In this document: positions 18,552-24,693 of the stretch, piece by piece
Layout of the letters: each line of letters begins with the position of its first letter
How positions within the stretch are numbered: position 1 is the stretch's first letter
Assembly: GCA_022823045.1 (NCBI GenBank)
Contig: JAJDXW010000069.1
Location: 1-37,880 of the forward strand
DNA length: 37,880 nt
DNA from: Gammaproteobacteria bacterium
GTDB taxonomy: Bacteria > Pseudomonadota > Gammaproteobacteria > HK1
Reading direction: 5' to 3'
Position numbers and translations under genes: made by a program
The notes under the pieces: model-generated
Databases searched by the model: none
What the model was told of the DNA's origin: nothing
What the model saw: only the letters and a program-made list of their open reading frames with translations

Positions 18552-21005
18552 ATGGGCGACGAAGAGCGGGCACCGGGTGTCCTGCTGCTCGCCGCGGTGG
18601 CGCTCCTCTCCGCCGCCACCCTCGGCTACGAGGTTCTGCTGACCCGGCTCCTCGCGATCGTCCAGTGGCACCACCTCGCATTCCTCGTGATCAGCACCGC
18701 CCTCCTCGGATTCGGGGCGAGCGGCGCCTTCCTGGTGGTGGTCGGCCATCGGCTCCGGGTCTCCGCCGGACCCTTCCTCGCCCTCTGCGCCCTCGCGTTC
18801 GCGGTCGCGGCCCCCGTCTGCTTCGCGATCGCCCAGCACGTCCCCTTCAACGTGCTGGAGCTGCCCTGGTCGCTCCGGCCGCTCGGCTGGCTGCTCGTCA
18901 TCGAGGTCTTCCTCGCCATTCCCTTCTTCATCGCCGCGACCGCGATCGGGCGCACCCTCATCGTGTTCGGGGACCGCCTCTCGCGGGTCTACGCGGCGGA
19001 CCTCGCGGGCGCCGGGGGCGGAGCGGTCCTCGCGGTGGCTTTGCTCTCGTGGTTCCCGGCGGAACGGACCCTGGACGCCCTCGGGGCGATGGCAGCCCTC
19101 GCGGGAGCGATCGCCGCGGTCCGGGCCCGGCGGGCGACCCGGTGGGCCCTCCTCGCTCCCGCGGCCGGCATCGTCTTCCTGCTGGTCTCCGGCCAGGGGT
19201 ACTGGAACGAGCTTCGGATATCGCCGTTCAAGCCGCTCCCGCAAGCCCTTCGGGTGAGCGGTGCGAAGCTCGCCGAGACCCGGTCGGGCCCGCTCGGGCG
19301 CGTGAGCGCGGTCGAGAACGAGAAGGTGCCGCTCCGGTGGGCGCCGGGACTCAGCCTCCTCGCCCGCGCTCCGGTCCCCGAGCAGGTGGCCCTCTTCGTC
19401 GACGGCGACGGGCCGATTGCGATTCCGCGCAAACGGCGGGAGGCACCACCGCCCGCCTATCTCGACGACCTCCCCTCCGCCCTTCCCTACTACCTCTTCG
19501 AATGGCCCCGCCGCGTGCTGGTGCTCGGGGCGGGCGGGGGTGCTCCGGTCCTCCAGGCGCTCGGAGGCGGGGCGCGTACGGTGGACGCGGTCGAGCTCCA
19601 GCCGGACATCGTCGCCCTCGCACGGGCCCGGTACCGGAGGTTCTCCGGCGGCGCGCTCGTGCATCCCGCCGTGAATCTCCACGTCGGCGACCCCCGTGCG
19701 TTCGTCGAGGCGGCGCGCGGGGAGGAGTACGACCTCATCCAGGTCGATGCGCTCGGGGCGAGCCCGTCCGGGCTCCATGCCCTCAAGGCGGAGCGGCTCC
19801 TCACCGTGGAGTCGATGCGGGCCATGCTGGCGCGGCTCGCCCCCCGCGGGCTCGTCGCGTTCACCGGCTGGAACGAGCTTCCGCCGCGGAGCGGGCCGCG
19901 GCTCCTCGCGACCCTGCTCGAATCCCTCGCGGCGGAAGGGATCGGGCCCGCCGCGGAGCACCTCGCGTGGGTCCGGAGCTGGAACACGAACACCCTCGTC
20001 GCGAGCCGTGCGCCGCTCTCCGGGGGGCAGGTCGCGGCGGTCCGCTCCTTCGCCCGTTCCCGGGCCTTCGACCTCGTCCACGTACCGGGTATGGAGGCGG
20101 ACGAGGCCAACCGCTTCAACGTGATGAAGCGTCCCTGGTTCCACGAGGCGGCGGCGCGCCTCCTCGGCCCGGAGCGGGAGGAGTTCCTCCGCGACTACAA
20201 GTTCGACATCCGGCCCGCGACCGACGACCGGCCCTACCTCTGGAGCTTCTTCCGGTGGGCGCACGCGCCCGAGATTCTCGCCTTGGGCCGCGAGGGCGGG
20301 ATCGGCCTCCTCGCGATCGGCTACCTCGCCCTCCCCGCCGCCCTCGTCCAGGCCGCGGCCGCGAGCGCGGCCCTCATCCTGCTCCCCCTCCTCCTCGTGC
20401 GGCGACGCTCCGTCGGCGCACGAGGCGGAGCGCGGCGCGGGGCGGCCCTCGCCGGCTTCTTCGCCCTCGGGCTCGCGTTCCTCATGATGGAGATCGCGTT
20501 CATCAGCCGGTTCACGGTAGTCCTCAGCCATCCGCTGCACGCCCTCGTCGTGGTGCTCGCGGCGTTCCTCGTCTTCGCCGGCGTCGGAAGCTGGCTCGCG
20601 GGCCGGCGCGAGTCGGGCGAAGAGCACGGTTCCGTCGCCTGGCCGACGGCCGGGATCGTGGTCCTCGCGTTGGCCTGTCTCGCCGCCCTTCCCCACCTCA
20701 CGAGCGTGCTCCTCGGCGCCGCGCCCCACGTCAAGATCGCGGCCGCGGTTGCCCTCGTCGCACCGCTCGCGACGTTCATGGGAATGCCCTTCCCGCGCGC
20801 CCTCGCCCGCCTCCGACGCCTCGACCCCGATCTTGTTCCCTGGGCGTGGGGGGTCAACGGCTGCGCATCGGTCATCGGCGCGGTGCTCGCGACCGGGCTC
20901 GCGATCCACCTCGGCCAGACGCTCGTCATCACCTGCGCCGCCCTCCTCTACGCCGCGGCAGCGCTCGCCCTCAACCGCATGGGAGCGCCCCGCGAGCACG
21001 GCTGA
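18552..21005 (+). CDS. Polytopic membrane protein with spermidine-synthase-like domain
   Basis: This 817-residue protein has three parts. About residues 10-215 form six or seven transmembrane helices (LLLAAVALLSAATLGYEVLLTRLLAI first). A soluble Rossmann domain of spermidine-synthase type follows near residues 310-470, with motif I RVLVLGAGGGAPVLQALGGG and the acidic residue in VDAVELQPDIV, then YDLIQVDAL. From about residue 590 a second set of helices continues to the C-terminus (LAGFFALGLAFLMMEIAFISRF). Such membrane-bound relatives are annotated as spermidine synthases, but their reaction is unknown. It starts nine bases after the methyltransferase stop, suggesting a shared transcript. Confidence 0.85.
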   Translation: MGDEERAPGVLLLAAVALLSAATLGYEVLLTRLLAIVQWHHLAFLVISTALLGFGASGAFLVVVGHRLRVSAGPFLALCALAFAVAAPVCFAIAQHVPFNVLELPWSLRPLGWLLVIEVFLAIPFFIAATAIGRTLIVFGDRLSRVYAADLAGAGGGAVLAVALLSWFPAERTLDALGAMAALAGAIAAVRARRATRWALLAPAAGIVFLLVSGQGYWNELRISPFKPLPQALRVSGAKLAETRSGPLGRVSAVENEKVPLRWAPGLSLLARAPVPEQVALFVDGDGPIAIPRKRREAPPPAYLDDLPSALPYYLFEWPRRVLVLGAGGGAPVLQALGGGARTVDAVELQPDIVALARARYRRFSGGALVHPAVNLHVGDPRAFVEAARGEEYDLIQVDALGASPSGLHALKAERLLTVESMRAMLARLAPRGLVAFTGWNELPPRSGPRLLATLLESLAAEGIGPAAEHLAWVRSWNTNTLVASRAPLSGGQVAAVRSFARSRAFDLVHVPGMEADEANRFNVMKRPWFHEAAARLLGPEREEFLRDYKFDIRPATDDRPYLWSFFRWAHAPEILALGREGGIGLLAIGYLALPAALVQAAAASAALILLPLLLVRRRSVGARGGARRGAALAGFFALGLAFLMMEIAFISRFTVVLSHPLHALVVVLAAFLVFAGVGSWLAGRRESGEEHGSVAWPTAGIVVLALACLAALPHLTSVLLGAAPHVKIAAAVALVAPLATFMGMPFPRALARLRRLDPDLVPWAWGVNGCASVIGAVLATGLAIHLGQTLVITCAALLYAAAALALNRMGAPREHG

Positions 21006-21043
21006 CGACGGGAGAGTCGTGCGAGTAACATCCACCAGACCAT

Positions 21044-21072
21044 CGCCGGACCGACGGTTCTTCCGTCCGGCG
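21044..21072 (+). promoter_or_regulatory. Hairpin in the leader of the sugar ABC operon
   Basis: CGCCGGA (21044-21050) pairs with TCCGGCG (21066-21072), with an inner CGG-TTCTT-CCG stem and a four-base bulge. It sits 22 bases before the ATG of the ATPase gene, between the membrane-protein stop and the AAGGGAA ribosome binding site. It could end the upstream transcript or shape the leader. Confidence 0.35.
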
Positions 21073-21094
21073 ACGTATCGAAGGGAACGCGAAG

Positions 21095-21892
21095 ATGAGC
21101 GACGCTGCTGACCGCGGGGCACCTGCGCCGCTCCTCGAGGCGCGGGGGATCACCAAGCGGTTCGGGGCGATCACTGCCCTCGACGGCGTGGACCTCCGCC
21201 TGTTTCCGAGCGAGGTGCTCGGGATCGTCGGGGACAACGGGGCGGGCAAATCGACCCTGATGAAGGTGCTGTCCGGCCTCTATGCCCCCACCGAGGGAGA
21301 GATCGTCTTCGATTCGAGGCCGGTCGTCCTCCACTCGCCCCGCGATGCCCAGAACATCGGAATCGAGATGGTGTACCAGGACCTCGCGCTCGCCGGGAAC
21401 CTCCCCATCCACGAGAACATCTATCTCGGCCGCGAACCGGGACGCAGGGTCCTCGGCTTCACGGTGGTGGACGAGAAGCTGTCGCGCCGGATGGCGATGG
21501 ACCATCTCGATCGGCTCAACATCACCGTCAAGTCCGTCGACCAGGGCGTCGAGGAGCTTTCCGGGGGGCAGGCCCAGGCCGTCGCGATCGCCCGCGCGAC
21601 CGCCTTCGAGGGCCGCGTGGTGATCATGGACGAGCCGACCGCCGCGCTCGCGATCCGCGAGGTCGGCAAGGTCCTCGACCTCATCAAGAGCCTCAAGGAT
21701 CACGGTGCGAGCGTCATGCTGGTGAGCCACCGGATGGATGACGTCTTCTTCGTCTGCGACCGGGTAATGGCCCTCTTCCACGGGCGCAACTTCGAGGAGG
21801 CGTCCATCGCCGAGACCAGCCGCAACGAGGTGATCGGCTGGATCATGGGGACCCGGGGCCACGCCGCCACGCCGGCGCACGAGAGGGCTTGA
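21095..21892 (+). CDS. Sugar ABC transporter ATP-binding protein (FrcA/RbsA-like, single domain)
   Basis: This 265-residue ATPase has Walker A GDNGAGKST near residue 45, the variant signature LSGGQAQAVAIARAT near residue 150, Walker B VVIMDEPTAAL and the switch histidine in LVSHRMDDV. It contains one nucleotide-binding domain rather than the duplicated form of RbsA, as in fructose-type FrcA subunits. Its stop is four bases from the permease start, so the genes form one operon. The sugar is not known. Confidence 0.93.
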   Translation: MSDAADRGAPAPLLEARGITKRFGAITALDGVDLRLFPSEVLGIVGDNGAGKSTLMKVLSGLYAPTEGEIVFDSRPVVLHSPRDAQNIGIEMVYQDLALAGNLPIHENIYLGREPGRRVLGFTVVDEKLSRRMAMDHLDRLNITVKSVDQGVEELSGGQAQAVAIARATAFEGRVVIMDEPTAALAIREVGKVLDLIKSLKDHGASVMLVSHRMDDVFFVCDRVMALFHGRNFEEASIAETSRNEVIGWIMGTRGHAATPAHERA

Positions 21893-21896
21893 GCGG

Positions 21897-22898
21897 ATGG
21901 CGGCTCAACCGGCGGCGGACGCGAGGCGGCAGCGACTGAGGTTGCTCGAGAAGTACGGCGTCTTCGGCATGGTGCTGGTGATGGCGCTGGTCCTCACCCT
22001 GCTCCAGCCGGACATCTTCCTCTCGACCCAGAACCTCACCAACATCCTGCGCCAGGTCGCGATGAACGCGTTGCTCGCGCTCGGGCTCTACGTCGTGATC
22101 CTCACCGCCGGGATCGATCTGTCCGTCGGCTCGATCATGGCCTTGACGACGATGCTCCTCGCGATGGCGGACACCTCGGGCTGGCCCTGGCCCGTCGCGA
22201 TCCTGGTGGGCCCGGCGGTCGGGGTCCTCTGCGGTCTCGTCAACGGCCTCGGGCTGACCGTGCTCCGCCTCCCCCACCCCTTCATCATGACCCTCGGCAC
22301 GCTCTACACCCTGCGCGGGGTCACGAACCTCGTCTCGGGGGGACGCCCCGTCTCCGGCGTCTCCGACCCCATCCGGTTCCTCGGGTCGGGCGAGATCCCG
22401 ATGCCCTTCCTCGGCAAGTTCGGCTCCCTTCCGGTGAGCGCGGTGGTCCTGCTGGTGTGCTACTCCGGCACCGCCTGGTTCCTGAACAAGGTCTCGATCG
22501 GCCGGCACATCTTCGCCGTCGGCGGCAATCCACAGGCGGCGCGCGTCAGCGGCATCAACGTCGATCGGATCCTCCTCATCGTCTACGCGATGTCGGGATT
22601 CTTCGCGGGGCTCGCCGGTCTCCTCATGGCCGGCCGGACCGGAGCCGGATTCCCGAATGCGGGGATCGGGGCCGAGCTCGACGCGATTGCGGCCGTCATC
22701 ATCGGCGGGGCGAGCTTCTTCGGCGGACGGGGGACGGTGCTCGGGGTCTTCGCGGGGGTGCTCGTCATGGGGCTGCTGCGCAACGGGCTCAACCTGATGG
22801 ACGTGAGCGCCTTCTGGCAGCAGACTCTCATCGGCATGATCGTGGTCGGGGCGGTGTTCGTCGACGTGCTCCGCCGCCGCGCGGCGAACCGGCCGTGA
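21897..22898 (+). CDS. Sugar ABC transporter permease (RbsC/FrcC-like)
   Basis: This 333-residue BPD_transp_2-type permease has eight to ten transmembrane segments, starting with YGVFGMVLVMALVLTLL. Typical landmarks are LTAGIDLSVGSIMALTTM, RLPHPFIMTLGTLYTLRG, FAVGGNPQAARVSGINVDRI and GGASFFGGRGTVLGVFAGVLVMG. Four bases separate it from the ATPase gene. The binding-protein gene follows after a 98-base gap that contains the folded leader. Confidence 0.94.
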   Translation: MAAQPAADARRQRLRLLEKYGVFGMVLVMALVLTLLQPDIFLSTQNLTNILRQVAMNALLALGLYVVILTAGIDLSVGSIMALTTMLLAMADTSGWPWPVAILVGPAVGVLCGLVNGLGLTVLRLPHPFIMTLGTLYTLRGVTNLVSGGRPVSGVSDPIRFLGSGEIPMPFLGKFGSLPVSAVVLLVCYSGTAWFLNKVSIGRHIFAVGGNPQAARVSGINVDRILLIVYAMSGFFAGLAGLLMAGRTGAGFPNAGIGAELDAIAAVIIGGASFFGGRGTVLGVFAGVLVMGLLRNGLNLMDVSAFWQQTLIGMIVVGAVFVDVLRRRAANRP

Positions 22899-22917
22899 CG
22901 CAGCCCACGATACCGGG

Positions 22918-22978
22918 CGGGTTCCGGCGCGCGAACTCCGGCGCCGGAACCCGTGCATTGGAAACCAACGGAGTTCGC
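22918..22978 (+). ncRNA. Candidate pseudoknotted leader of the sugar-binding protein gene
   Basis: CGGGTTCCGGCGC (22918-22930) and GCGCCGGAACCCG (22941-22953) form a perfect 13-bp stem around the ten-base loop GCGAACTCCG. That whole loop is perfectly complementary to CGGAGTTCGC at 22969-22978. Between them lies a small hairpin, TTGG-AAA-CCAA (22958-22968). The complementary segment ends a few bases before the GAGAGGAAG ribosome binding site of the gene at 22997. The layout fits a loop-to-leader pseudoknot or a pair of alternative folds that could gate translation, or protect the 5' end after processing. Confidence 0.6.
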
Positions 22979-22996
22979 AACGAGAGGAAGTGAATC

Positions 22997-23914
22997 ATGA
23001 CTCGATACACGAAGAGCCTCCTTGCCGCGGCCGGCCTCGCCGTGGCGTTCAGCGGAGCGGCCGTCGCGGAGACCAAGGTCGCGGTCATCATGTCCGATTC
23101 CGGCTCGGCCAATCCGTTCTGGGCCGCGGTCACCAAGGGAGCTCTCGACAAGGGCGCGGAGCTCGGCATCGACGTCGCGGCCGTCGCCCCGGCCGGGGGC
23201 GAGACCGACGTCGCCGGGCAGATCGCGATGGTCGAGGACCAGATCGCGAAGGGGGTGGTCGGCATCGCGATCGCACCCGCGGACACCGCCGCGCTCGTAC
23301 CGGTGCTCGAGCAGGCCCGGGAGCGGGGAGTGCACGTCGTCTTCATCGACAAACGCGCCGACATGCCGGGAACCTACATCGGGACAGACAACATCCCGGC
23401 TGCCCGGCTCGGCGCCCAGCACATCTGCGACACCGTGGAGGCAGGGAGCGACGTCGCGGTGCTGCAGGGCATCGTCACGTCCACCACCGGACAGCACCGG
23501 GCGGAGGGCGGCCGCGGCGGCCTCGTGGACTGCGGCCTCAACCTCGTCGCGGAGCAGCCCGCCGACTGGGACGCGGGGAAGGCGTTGACCACCACCGAGA
23601 ACATCCTCACCGCCAACCCCAACCTGCGGGCGATCTTCGCCTCGAACGACAACATGGCCCTCGGCGCGATCGAAGCGCTCCGCAACGCCAAGCTGCTCGA
23701 CCAGGTCATGGTCGTCGGATTCGACGGCAATCCGGACGCCGCGGAGAGCATTCTCAAGGGCGAGATGGCCGCCTCCGTCGCCCAGCGTCCGGCCGTCATG
23801 GGCGCCATGGGGGTCGAGGCGGTCCTGAAGCTCGTCGCGGGCGAGGAGCTTCCCGACGAGATCGACACCGGGGCGGAGCTCGTGACCCCGGACAACGCGG
23901 AGAGCTACCGCTAG
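22997..23914 (+). CDS. Sugar ABC transporter substrate-binding protein (RbsB/FrcB-like)
   Basis: This 305-residue periplasmic binding protein (Peripla_BP_4 type) has a Sec signal, RYTKSLLAAAGLAVAFSGAAVA, cut before ETKVAVIM. The fold is shown by DSGSANPFWAAVTKGALDKGAELGI, VVGIAIAPADTAALVPVLEQARERGVHVVFID, and the hinge region LRAIFASNDNMALGAIEAL then VVGFDGNPDA. The ATG follows AGAGGAAG. It is the third gene of the ATPase-permease-binding-protein operon but stands behind a 98-base folded spacer, which may allow its expression to exceed that of the membrane parts. Confidence 0.94.
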   Translation: MTRYTKSLLAAAGLAVAFSGAAVAETKVAVIMSDSGSANPFWAAVTKGALDKGAELGIDVAAVAPAGGETDVAGQIAMVEDQIAKGVVGIAIAPADTAALVPVLEQARERGVHVVFIDKRADMPGTYIGTDNIPAARLGAQHICDTVEAGSDVAVLQGIVTSTTGQHRAEGGRGGLVDCGLNLVAEQPADWDAGKALTTTENILTANPNLRAIFASNDNMALGAIEALRNAKLLDQVMVVGFDGNPDAAESILKGEMAASVAQRPAVMGAMGVEAVLKLVAGEELPDEIDTGAELVTPDNAESYR

Positions 23915-23941
23915 GCCGCGCGCATCTCCCTGACGGAAGCA

Positions 23942-23974
23942 CGGCCCGGGGCGCCGACGGGGCGCCCCGGGCCG
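23942..23974 (+). terminator. Strong hairpin after the sugar ABC operon
   Basis: CGGCCCGGGGCGCC-GACGG-GGCGCCCCGGGCCG is a perfect 14-base-pair stem starting 28 bases after the binding-protein stop. It is the most stable simple hairpin I found in the window. No T-tract follows, which is common for terminators or 3' stabilisers in very GC-rich genomes. Confidence 0.65.
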
Positions 23975-24013
23975 CGCCGATCGATCGACCGGCGGAACAC
24001 GGCGGCACGACGC

Positions 24014-24042
24014 TTGACATCGGGATGCGGGTGGCACGCGAT
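24014..24042 (+). promoter_or_regulatory. Possible promoter of the 3-hydroxyanthranilate dioxygenase gene
   Basis: A perfect TTGACA (24014-24019) is followed 17 bases later by CGCGAT (24037-24042), a poor -10 box. The start codon is 73 bases downstream of the -10. The perfect -35 with a weak -10 would suit an activated promoter, but the call is tentative. Confidence 0.35.
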
Positions 24043-24114
24043 CACGGTGTCCGGCACCCCGCGCGCACTGGAGGACGGGGACCATACGGAACCCGCCGCC
24101 CTGGAGGCGTAGCG

Positions 24115-24693
<579 letters not shown>

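Follow-up and report, generated by a model that had tools for sequence, protein, structure and literature searches.

Comparison of homologous leaders indicates that a real RNA element, conserved in distantly related bacteria and apparently undescribed, lies between the permease and the substrate-binding-protein genes of a CUT2 ABC transporter operon, where it probably sets the amount of binding protein that is made. We see an even chance that it is a cis-acting H-type pseudoknot, placed between the two cistrons, that raises or tunes binding-protein output; this reading draws on its presence, position, gene association and the covariation of both of its helices. The sequence analysed (the window, 37,880 nt) is positions 1 to 37,880, forward strand, of contig JAJDXW010000069.1 of assembly GCA_022823045.1, from a Gammaproteobacteria bacterium (GTDB HK1). 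The first-pass annotation had presented the structure as a leader RNA. Instead, it is intercistronic, since it is sited between the permease gene (stop codon at 22898, 19 nt before the first helix, S1) and the binding-protein gene (22997-23914), and not at the operon start (Table 1). In NCBIfam, the best matches of the ATPase are of the YtfR/RbsA/XylG type, every one under cut-off; the permease is RbsC/AlsC-like and the binding protein AlsB/RbsB-like, both also under cut-off, and the latter has 2ioy and 1gub as PDB relatives. No terminator-like site was found in 20900-24600 and no U run follows S1 in the window, so the GC-rich hairpin plus U run of an intrinsic terminator or attenuator is not present. 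The gene 3' of the binding protein depends on the lineage, being a Gfo/Idh/MocA oxidoreductase in Taklimakanibacter (L060:3967-5085), a 2-hydroxyacid dehydrogenase in the beta lineage (L065:3828-4997) and a 3-hydroxyanthranilate dioxygenase-like (3-HAO-like, Pfam PF06052) gene in the window (about 24100-24435). The 3-HAO-like gene has an in-frame TAG at 24433-24435, with recognisable C-terminal sequence past it in an unchanged frame, which denotes either an assembly error or a broken gene.

Table 1. Features of the transporter operon and of the intercistronic element in the window.
Feature	Position	Strand	Basis or remark
Single-domain CUT2 ABC transporter ATPase gene	21095..21892	+	Pfam ABC_tran 4.8e-30
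CUT2 permease gene	21897..22898	+	Pfam BPD_transp_2 3.6e-44
S1 5' arm CGGGTTCCGGCGC	22918..22930	+	sequence; S1 covariation in 27 homologous leaders
Hairpin loop GCGAACTCCG, 10 bases	22931-22940	+	sequence
L1 (GC), 2 nt, spans S2	22931..22932	+	8-bp S2 with 2-nt L1 kept in L004
S2 5' strand GAACTCCG (in loop)	22933..22940	+	comparison of leaders, loop/partner swap test
S1 3' arm GCGCCGGAACCCG	22941..22953	+	sequence; S1 covariation
L3 linker, 15 nt	22954..22968	+	length 8-19 in homologs, sequence variable
Loop complement CGGAGTTCGC	22969-22978	+	exact 10-base match to loop GCGAACTCCG
S2 3' strand CGGAGTTC, upstream of Shine-Dalgarno (SD)	22969..22976	+	comparison of leaders, swap test
SD-like GAGAGGAAG of binding-protein gene	about 22982-22990	+	sequence
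Substrate-binding-protein gene, RbsB/AlsB-like	22997..23914	+	Pfam Peripla_BP_4 1.1e-53
Strong hairpin, 14-bp stem, 5-nt loop, no T run	23942..23974	+	27 nt 3' of binding-protein stop

The perfect stem that had been noted at 22918-22953 is confirmed, with Watson-Crick pairs at 13 of 13 positions, and so is the exact complementarity of its ten loop bases to a stretch upstream of the SD-like sequence, which itself lies outside both S1 and S2, before the ATG at 22997. When 22890-23010 was folded, the minimum-energy structure was S2-based and the centroid contained S1. The sister species L004, whose binding protein is 92% identical to that of the window, helps to delimit the second helix. Conservation between both sequences is concentrated in S1, the loop (10/10) and the antiloop (9/10), while the upstream region and the linker drift. 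In S1, one T-A pair has become C-G on both sides, a G-C pair has become T-G, and a mismatch is found near the base. L004 does not have the pair at loop position 2, which leaves an 8-bp S2 with a 2-nt L1, a size that an H-type pseudoknot can hold. Thus, the ten-pair loop helix proposed earlier stands as complementarity in the window (10/10) and is rejected as a 10-bp S2, only 8 pairs being continuous in L004. A TTGG-AAA-CCAA mini-hairpin, also proposed for the linker, is not conserved, as L004 reads CTGGAAGTCGA at the corresponding site.

We give next to no credit to the idea that the complementarity arose by chance or that the sequence is an operator at the DNA level or a dispersed repeat. Among 18 placements of hairpins with a stem of at least 9 bp on the + strand of the window, the S1 hairpin (two nested placements) is the only one with a loop having at least 8 complementary bases within 60 nt, and the same scan on 30 dinucleotide shuffles of the window yielded none. 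When a hairpin plus loop-complement search was limited to the window's leader, 0/150 shuffles matched it, so the suspicion that the ten-for-ten match is hard to put down to chance agrees with the controls. The S2 sequence pair is single in the 4.77-Mb assembly, except for one long perfect palindrome elsewhere; a 58-nt perfect palindrome, GAACTCCGGGGCGGGAAGCCGGGCCGCGCG..., is located at G000:C391:17424-17481 (L286) of that assembly. A dispersed origin finds some support in the fact that the assembly contains one further, weak match to the leader, but this match sits in an apparent coding gene, and the hairpin core has many, but degenerate, near matches. The many genomic copies of a REP/BIME repeat were not seen in the assembly, where one exact copy occurs and the near matches carry 2-3 mismatches. 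Orientation and place are, besides, fixed relative to one gene, and the S1 pairing is kept while the S1 sequence differs completely between lineages, a covariation that already contradicts the chance or repeat origin.

The same layout, with S1 after the permease stop and its loop paired upstream of the SD, precedes orthologous CUT2 binding-protein genes, and in all homologs with the element the gene 3' of it is the binding-protein gene. Both helices occur in about 37 leaders, from the sister species, Rhizobiales (Taklimakanibacter, Aestuariivirga, Bauldia, Pelagibacterium and other genomes of those families), Burkholderiales (Comamonadaceae and relatives) and a Rhizobium plasmid. In these leaders the anatomy is kept and the sequences are different: S1 has 6-13 bp, S2 5-8 bp, L1 1-7 nt, L2 0-3 nt and L3 8-19 nt, with 12-27 nt from S2 to the binding-protein ATG. 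In some Pelagibacterium-type leaders (L070, L231), S2 is reduced to a 4-bp core. S1 starts 1-20 nt past the permease stop in most leaders and after apparently longer gaps in a few, in a scan of these gaps and of RNase E sites that picked the wrong frame for several leaders. An RNase E site 5' of S1 was dropped as a candidate feature, because few leaders contain the consensus RNWUU. Only 10 of the 398 genomes sampled from the Rhizobiales order have the ortholog at all, and 8 of these 10 have the element. On the protein tree, in which many forks are unresolved, element presence clusters, with about 5 gains or losses vs 12.2 when shuffled. The closest relatives after L004, the Rhodobacteraceae L005-L007 (binding protein 75% identical to that of the window), contain right after the permease stop a short hairpin of about 6-7 bp without loop pairing, possibly a reduced form of the element. 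S2 is also absent in leaders of SAR11 and of the Rhizobiales L056 and L232, so this helix is dispensable. Some candidates were not counted, namely the SAR11 first-scan matches L011 and L025, which are inside a coding region or at its start, and the AT-rich SAR11 leader L008, matched by 55/150 shuffles; a pattern scan of viral contigs gave chance matches only.

A covariance model (R1) was built with five leaders from a single group, and it located the element where expected in L058, L075, L227, L234, L065, L071, L230 and L062, which belong to other lineages. A second model, R2, was searched against 398 Taklimakanibacter-order genomes, where seven matches reached E <= 1.4e-7 (rough E-values), every one before the binding-protein gene. 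Weaker R2 matches in Rhizobiales genomes appear to be chance matches to terminators or coding sequence; a hairpin, GGACCCGGCGGCAGTCTCCCGGCCGGGTCC, between apparent TRAP-transporter genes around position 1500 of L250 also had a weak R2 score, probably by chance. As MAFFT alignments A2-A5 misplace S1, the S1 counts were taken from A9, an alignment of 27 sequences fitted by the model to S1, with S2 outside the model, and S2 was dissected by hand. In A9, 96% of the S1 cells are paired and 7/8 pairs change on both sides, which is decisive for compensatory change in this helix. The covariation score for S1 and S2 together was 0.414 vs 0.094±0.016 in shuffled alignments and a maximum of 0.046 in slid registers. 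The automatic hairpin plus loop-complement search was successful in each of the 20 positive leaders examined; no shuffle equalled 15 of these, and five were equalled by 1 to 16 of 150 (L060 being the weakest). In 5/6 negative leaders it found no such structure.

The evidence for S2 has two levels. Its CUCC/GGAG core is invariant in A9, which is consistent with pairing and is not a proof of it, and compensatory change is found outside the core, where the outer pairs vary in step: GAACUCCG/CGGAGUUC, ACUCCG/CGGAGU, CUUCUCCG/CGGAGAAG, GUCUCCC/GGGAGAC, GUCUCCGG/CCGGAGAC, CACUCCA/UGGAGUG, UUCUCCA/UGGAGAA and CGUCUCU/AGAGACG. S1 might be functional by itself, as a stability or processing hairpin between the two cistrons, S2 being a by-product of an SD-like GGAG; we hold this to be improbable. 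Such an explanation would fit the leaders of Rhodobacteraceae and L056, with S1 and no S2, and the similarity of the S2 core to SD/anti-SD, but it does not account for the covariation outside the core, nor for the Rhizobium plasmid, where the core itself changes in step to CUCU/AGAG. Swapping partners also lowers complementarity. For each loop, we measured the complementarity to the downstream sequence of the leader it comes from and to that of the other leaders, a design that avoids the choice of columns, with S2 partners and loop boundaries assigned by hand. The summed longest complement was 170 for native combinations vs 142.7±4.8 permuted, and 79 vs 57.3±3.6 for the 11 distinct S2 types, with 0/20,000 permutations as high in both cases; these differences are inflated by relatedness, though the permutation retains the shared CUCC/GGAG core.

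Whether the two pairings form a pseudoknot or mutually exclusive folds had been left undecided in the first-pass annotation. The arrangement is that of an H-type pseudoknot in that a hairpin loop pairs with a downstream single strand and that both helices covary (S2 outside its core). A pseudoknot of this type needs an L1 of at least 1 nt over S2 and an L3 long enough over S1, and the lengths observed here (L1 1-7, L3 8-19) are sterically compatible. In computed nested folds, S1 is stabler than S2 only in most leaders, and these results together make the pseudoknot the preferred form. However, the S2-only fold is better in L065, L227, L228, L235 and L269, and for this reason mutually exclusive folds are still a candidate. 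At -4 to -12 kcal/mol, the SD region is another possible partner of the loop, usually a weaker one than the S2 partner (-5 to -14 kcal/mol); hence S2 may keep the loop off the SD.

If S1 and S2 fold together in the mRNA, the pseudoknot would raise or tune binding-protein output relative to the permease and the ATPase. It may shield the binding-protein cistron on its 5' side, and/or hold the region before the SD open for ribosome entry, and it would occupy a loop otherwise able to pair with the SD. On the 3' side there is usually a strong hairpin, located about 20 nt past the binding-protein stop at most homologous loci, so that the cistron would be flanked by structure at both ends; these 3' hairpins could be no more than terminators of the operon.

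A different possibility is a new small riboswitch, in which the transported solute or a metabolite would change access to the SD as in SAM-II, SAM-V and preQ1. A compact H-type pseudoknot near the SD of a transport gene, with strong covariation and a loop able to pair with the SD region instead, is what such a switch might look like. SAM-II and SAM-V are described as simple pseudoknots near the start codon in alphaproteobacteria (PMC2704228). They share with our element the compact H-type form, that position and covarying helices, but they have many conserved ligand-binding loop bases and another gene context, and their Rfam models do not match the element. Unlike in known aptamers, no base identity is kept between lineages in the unpaired L1, L2 and L3, which thus give no sign of a ligand pocket, there is no Rfam riboswitch match, and the element, being inside the operon, would control the binding protein only. 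We therefore consider a riboswitch unlikely and, from the lack of any conserved unpaired base, favour a cis-element that serves the last cistron of the transporter and acts on translation or mRNA stability.

Translational coupling could be another explanation: the ribosome ending the permease would open the S1 5' arm and free the loop to pair elsewhere, and translation of the binding protein would then track that of the permease. Most S1 helices start 1-20 nt past the permease stop, which is within the footprint of a terminating ribosome. The gaps nevertheless vary, a few being apparently longer, and a conserved alternative structure was not found in the leaders, so this sensor seems distinctly unlikely to us. 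The element may also represent an undescribed regulatory RNA class, a pseudoknot behind the permease stop whose loop would switch between the SD-like partner and the true SD in response to a signal; a protein, the solute that the transporter carries or a terminating ribosome passing by could provide this signal. We mention it as a doubtful but possible reading; if true, binding-protein supply would be controlled apart from the rest of the transporter.

The earlier statement that no leader of this kind is described agrees with Rfam 15 and with the literature searched. In Rfam 15, the whole window matched no family at the gathering threshold, SAM-II, SAM-V and preQ1 included, and 21500-24500 gave no match up to E = 10. 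Among 18 homologous loci, no family passed the gathering threshold save an unrelated FMN riboswitch (RF00050) near the operon of a Pelagibacterium genome (L070:6349-6497, - strand), and weak-threshold scans of two members gave sub-threshold matches to unrelated families only. The gene context of the element was not found in the part of the RNA motif-discovery literature covered.

Among known systems, the translational activator pseudoknot before the replication genes repZ/repA of IncI-alpha/IncB plasmids is similar in that a hairpin loop pairs just upstream of the SD of the controlled gene. It is described as promoting translation, whereas activation by our element is a proposal from sequence, and it differs in serving a plasmid replication gene, which a leader peptide and an antisense RNA control; the two sequences are not expected to be related. 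The phage T4 gene 32 pseudoknot also lies in an mRNA leader and is tied to translation and mRNA stability, but it acts in autoregulation by the gene product, and gene and sequence are unrelated. In the malE-malF REP region, intercistronic hairpins set subunit ratios in a transport operon. Both cases place a hairpin between transporter cistrons with a proposed role in differential expression; the REP sequences, however, belong to a dispersed repeat and follow the binding-protein gene, and our element is single-copy, precedes that gene, and has a second covarying helix. The livJ and msiK motifs are structured RNAs that, like the element, are sited upstream of ABC-transporter component genes (PMC11109978, PMC2864571). 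As described, livJ differs in its mostly Streptomyces distribution, P1/P2 stems and gene, and msiK in being a bulged hairpin before another gene, a layout that is not the pseudoknot of our element.

ABC importers need their binding protein in far larger amount than the membrane subunits. To our knowledge, how operons with the binding-protein gene in last position reach such excess is mostly unknown. The element adds an RNA family absent from Rfam 15, and a pseudoknot that precedes one transporter gene in lineages of alpha-, beta- and gammaproteobacteria would constitute a concrete RNA device for binding-protein excess.
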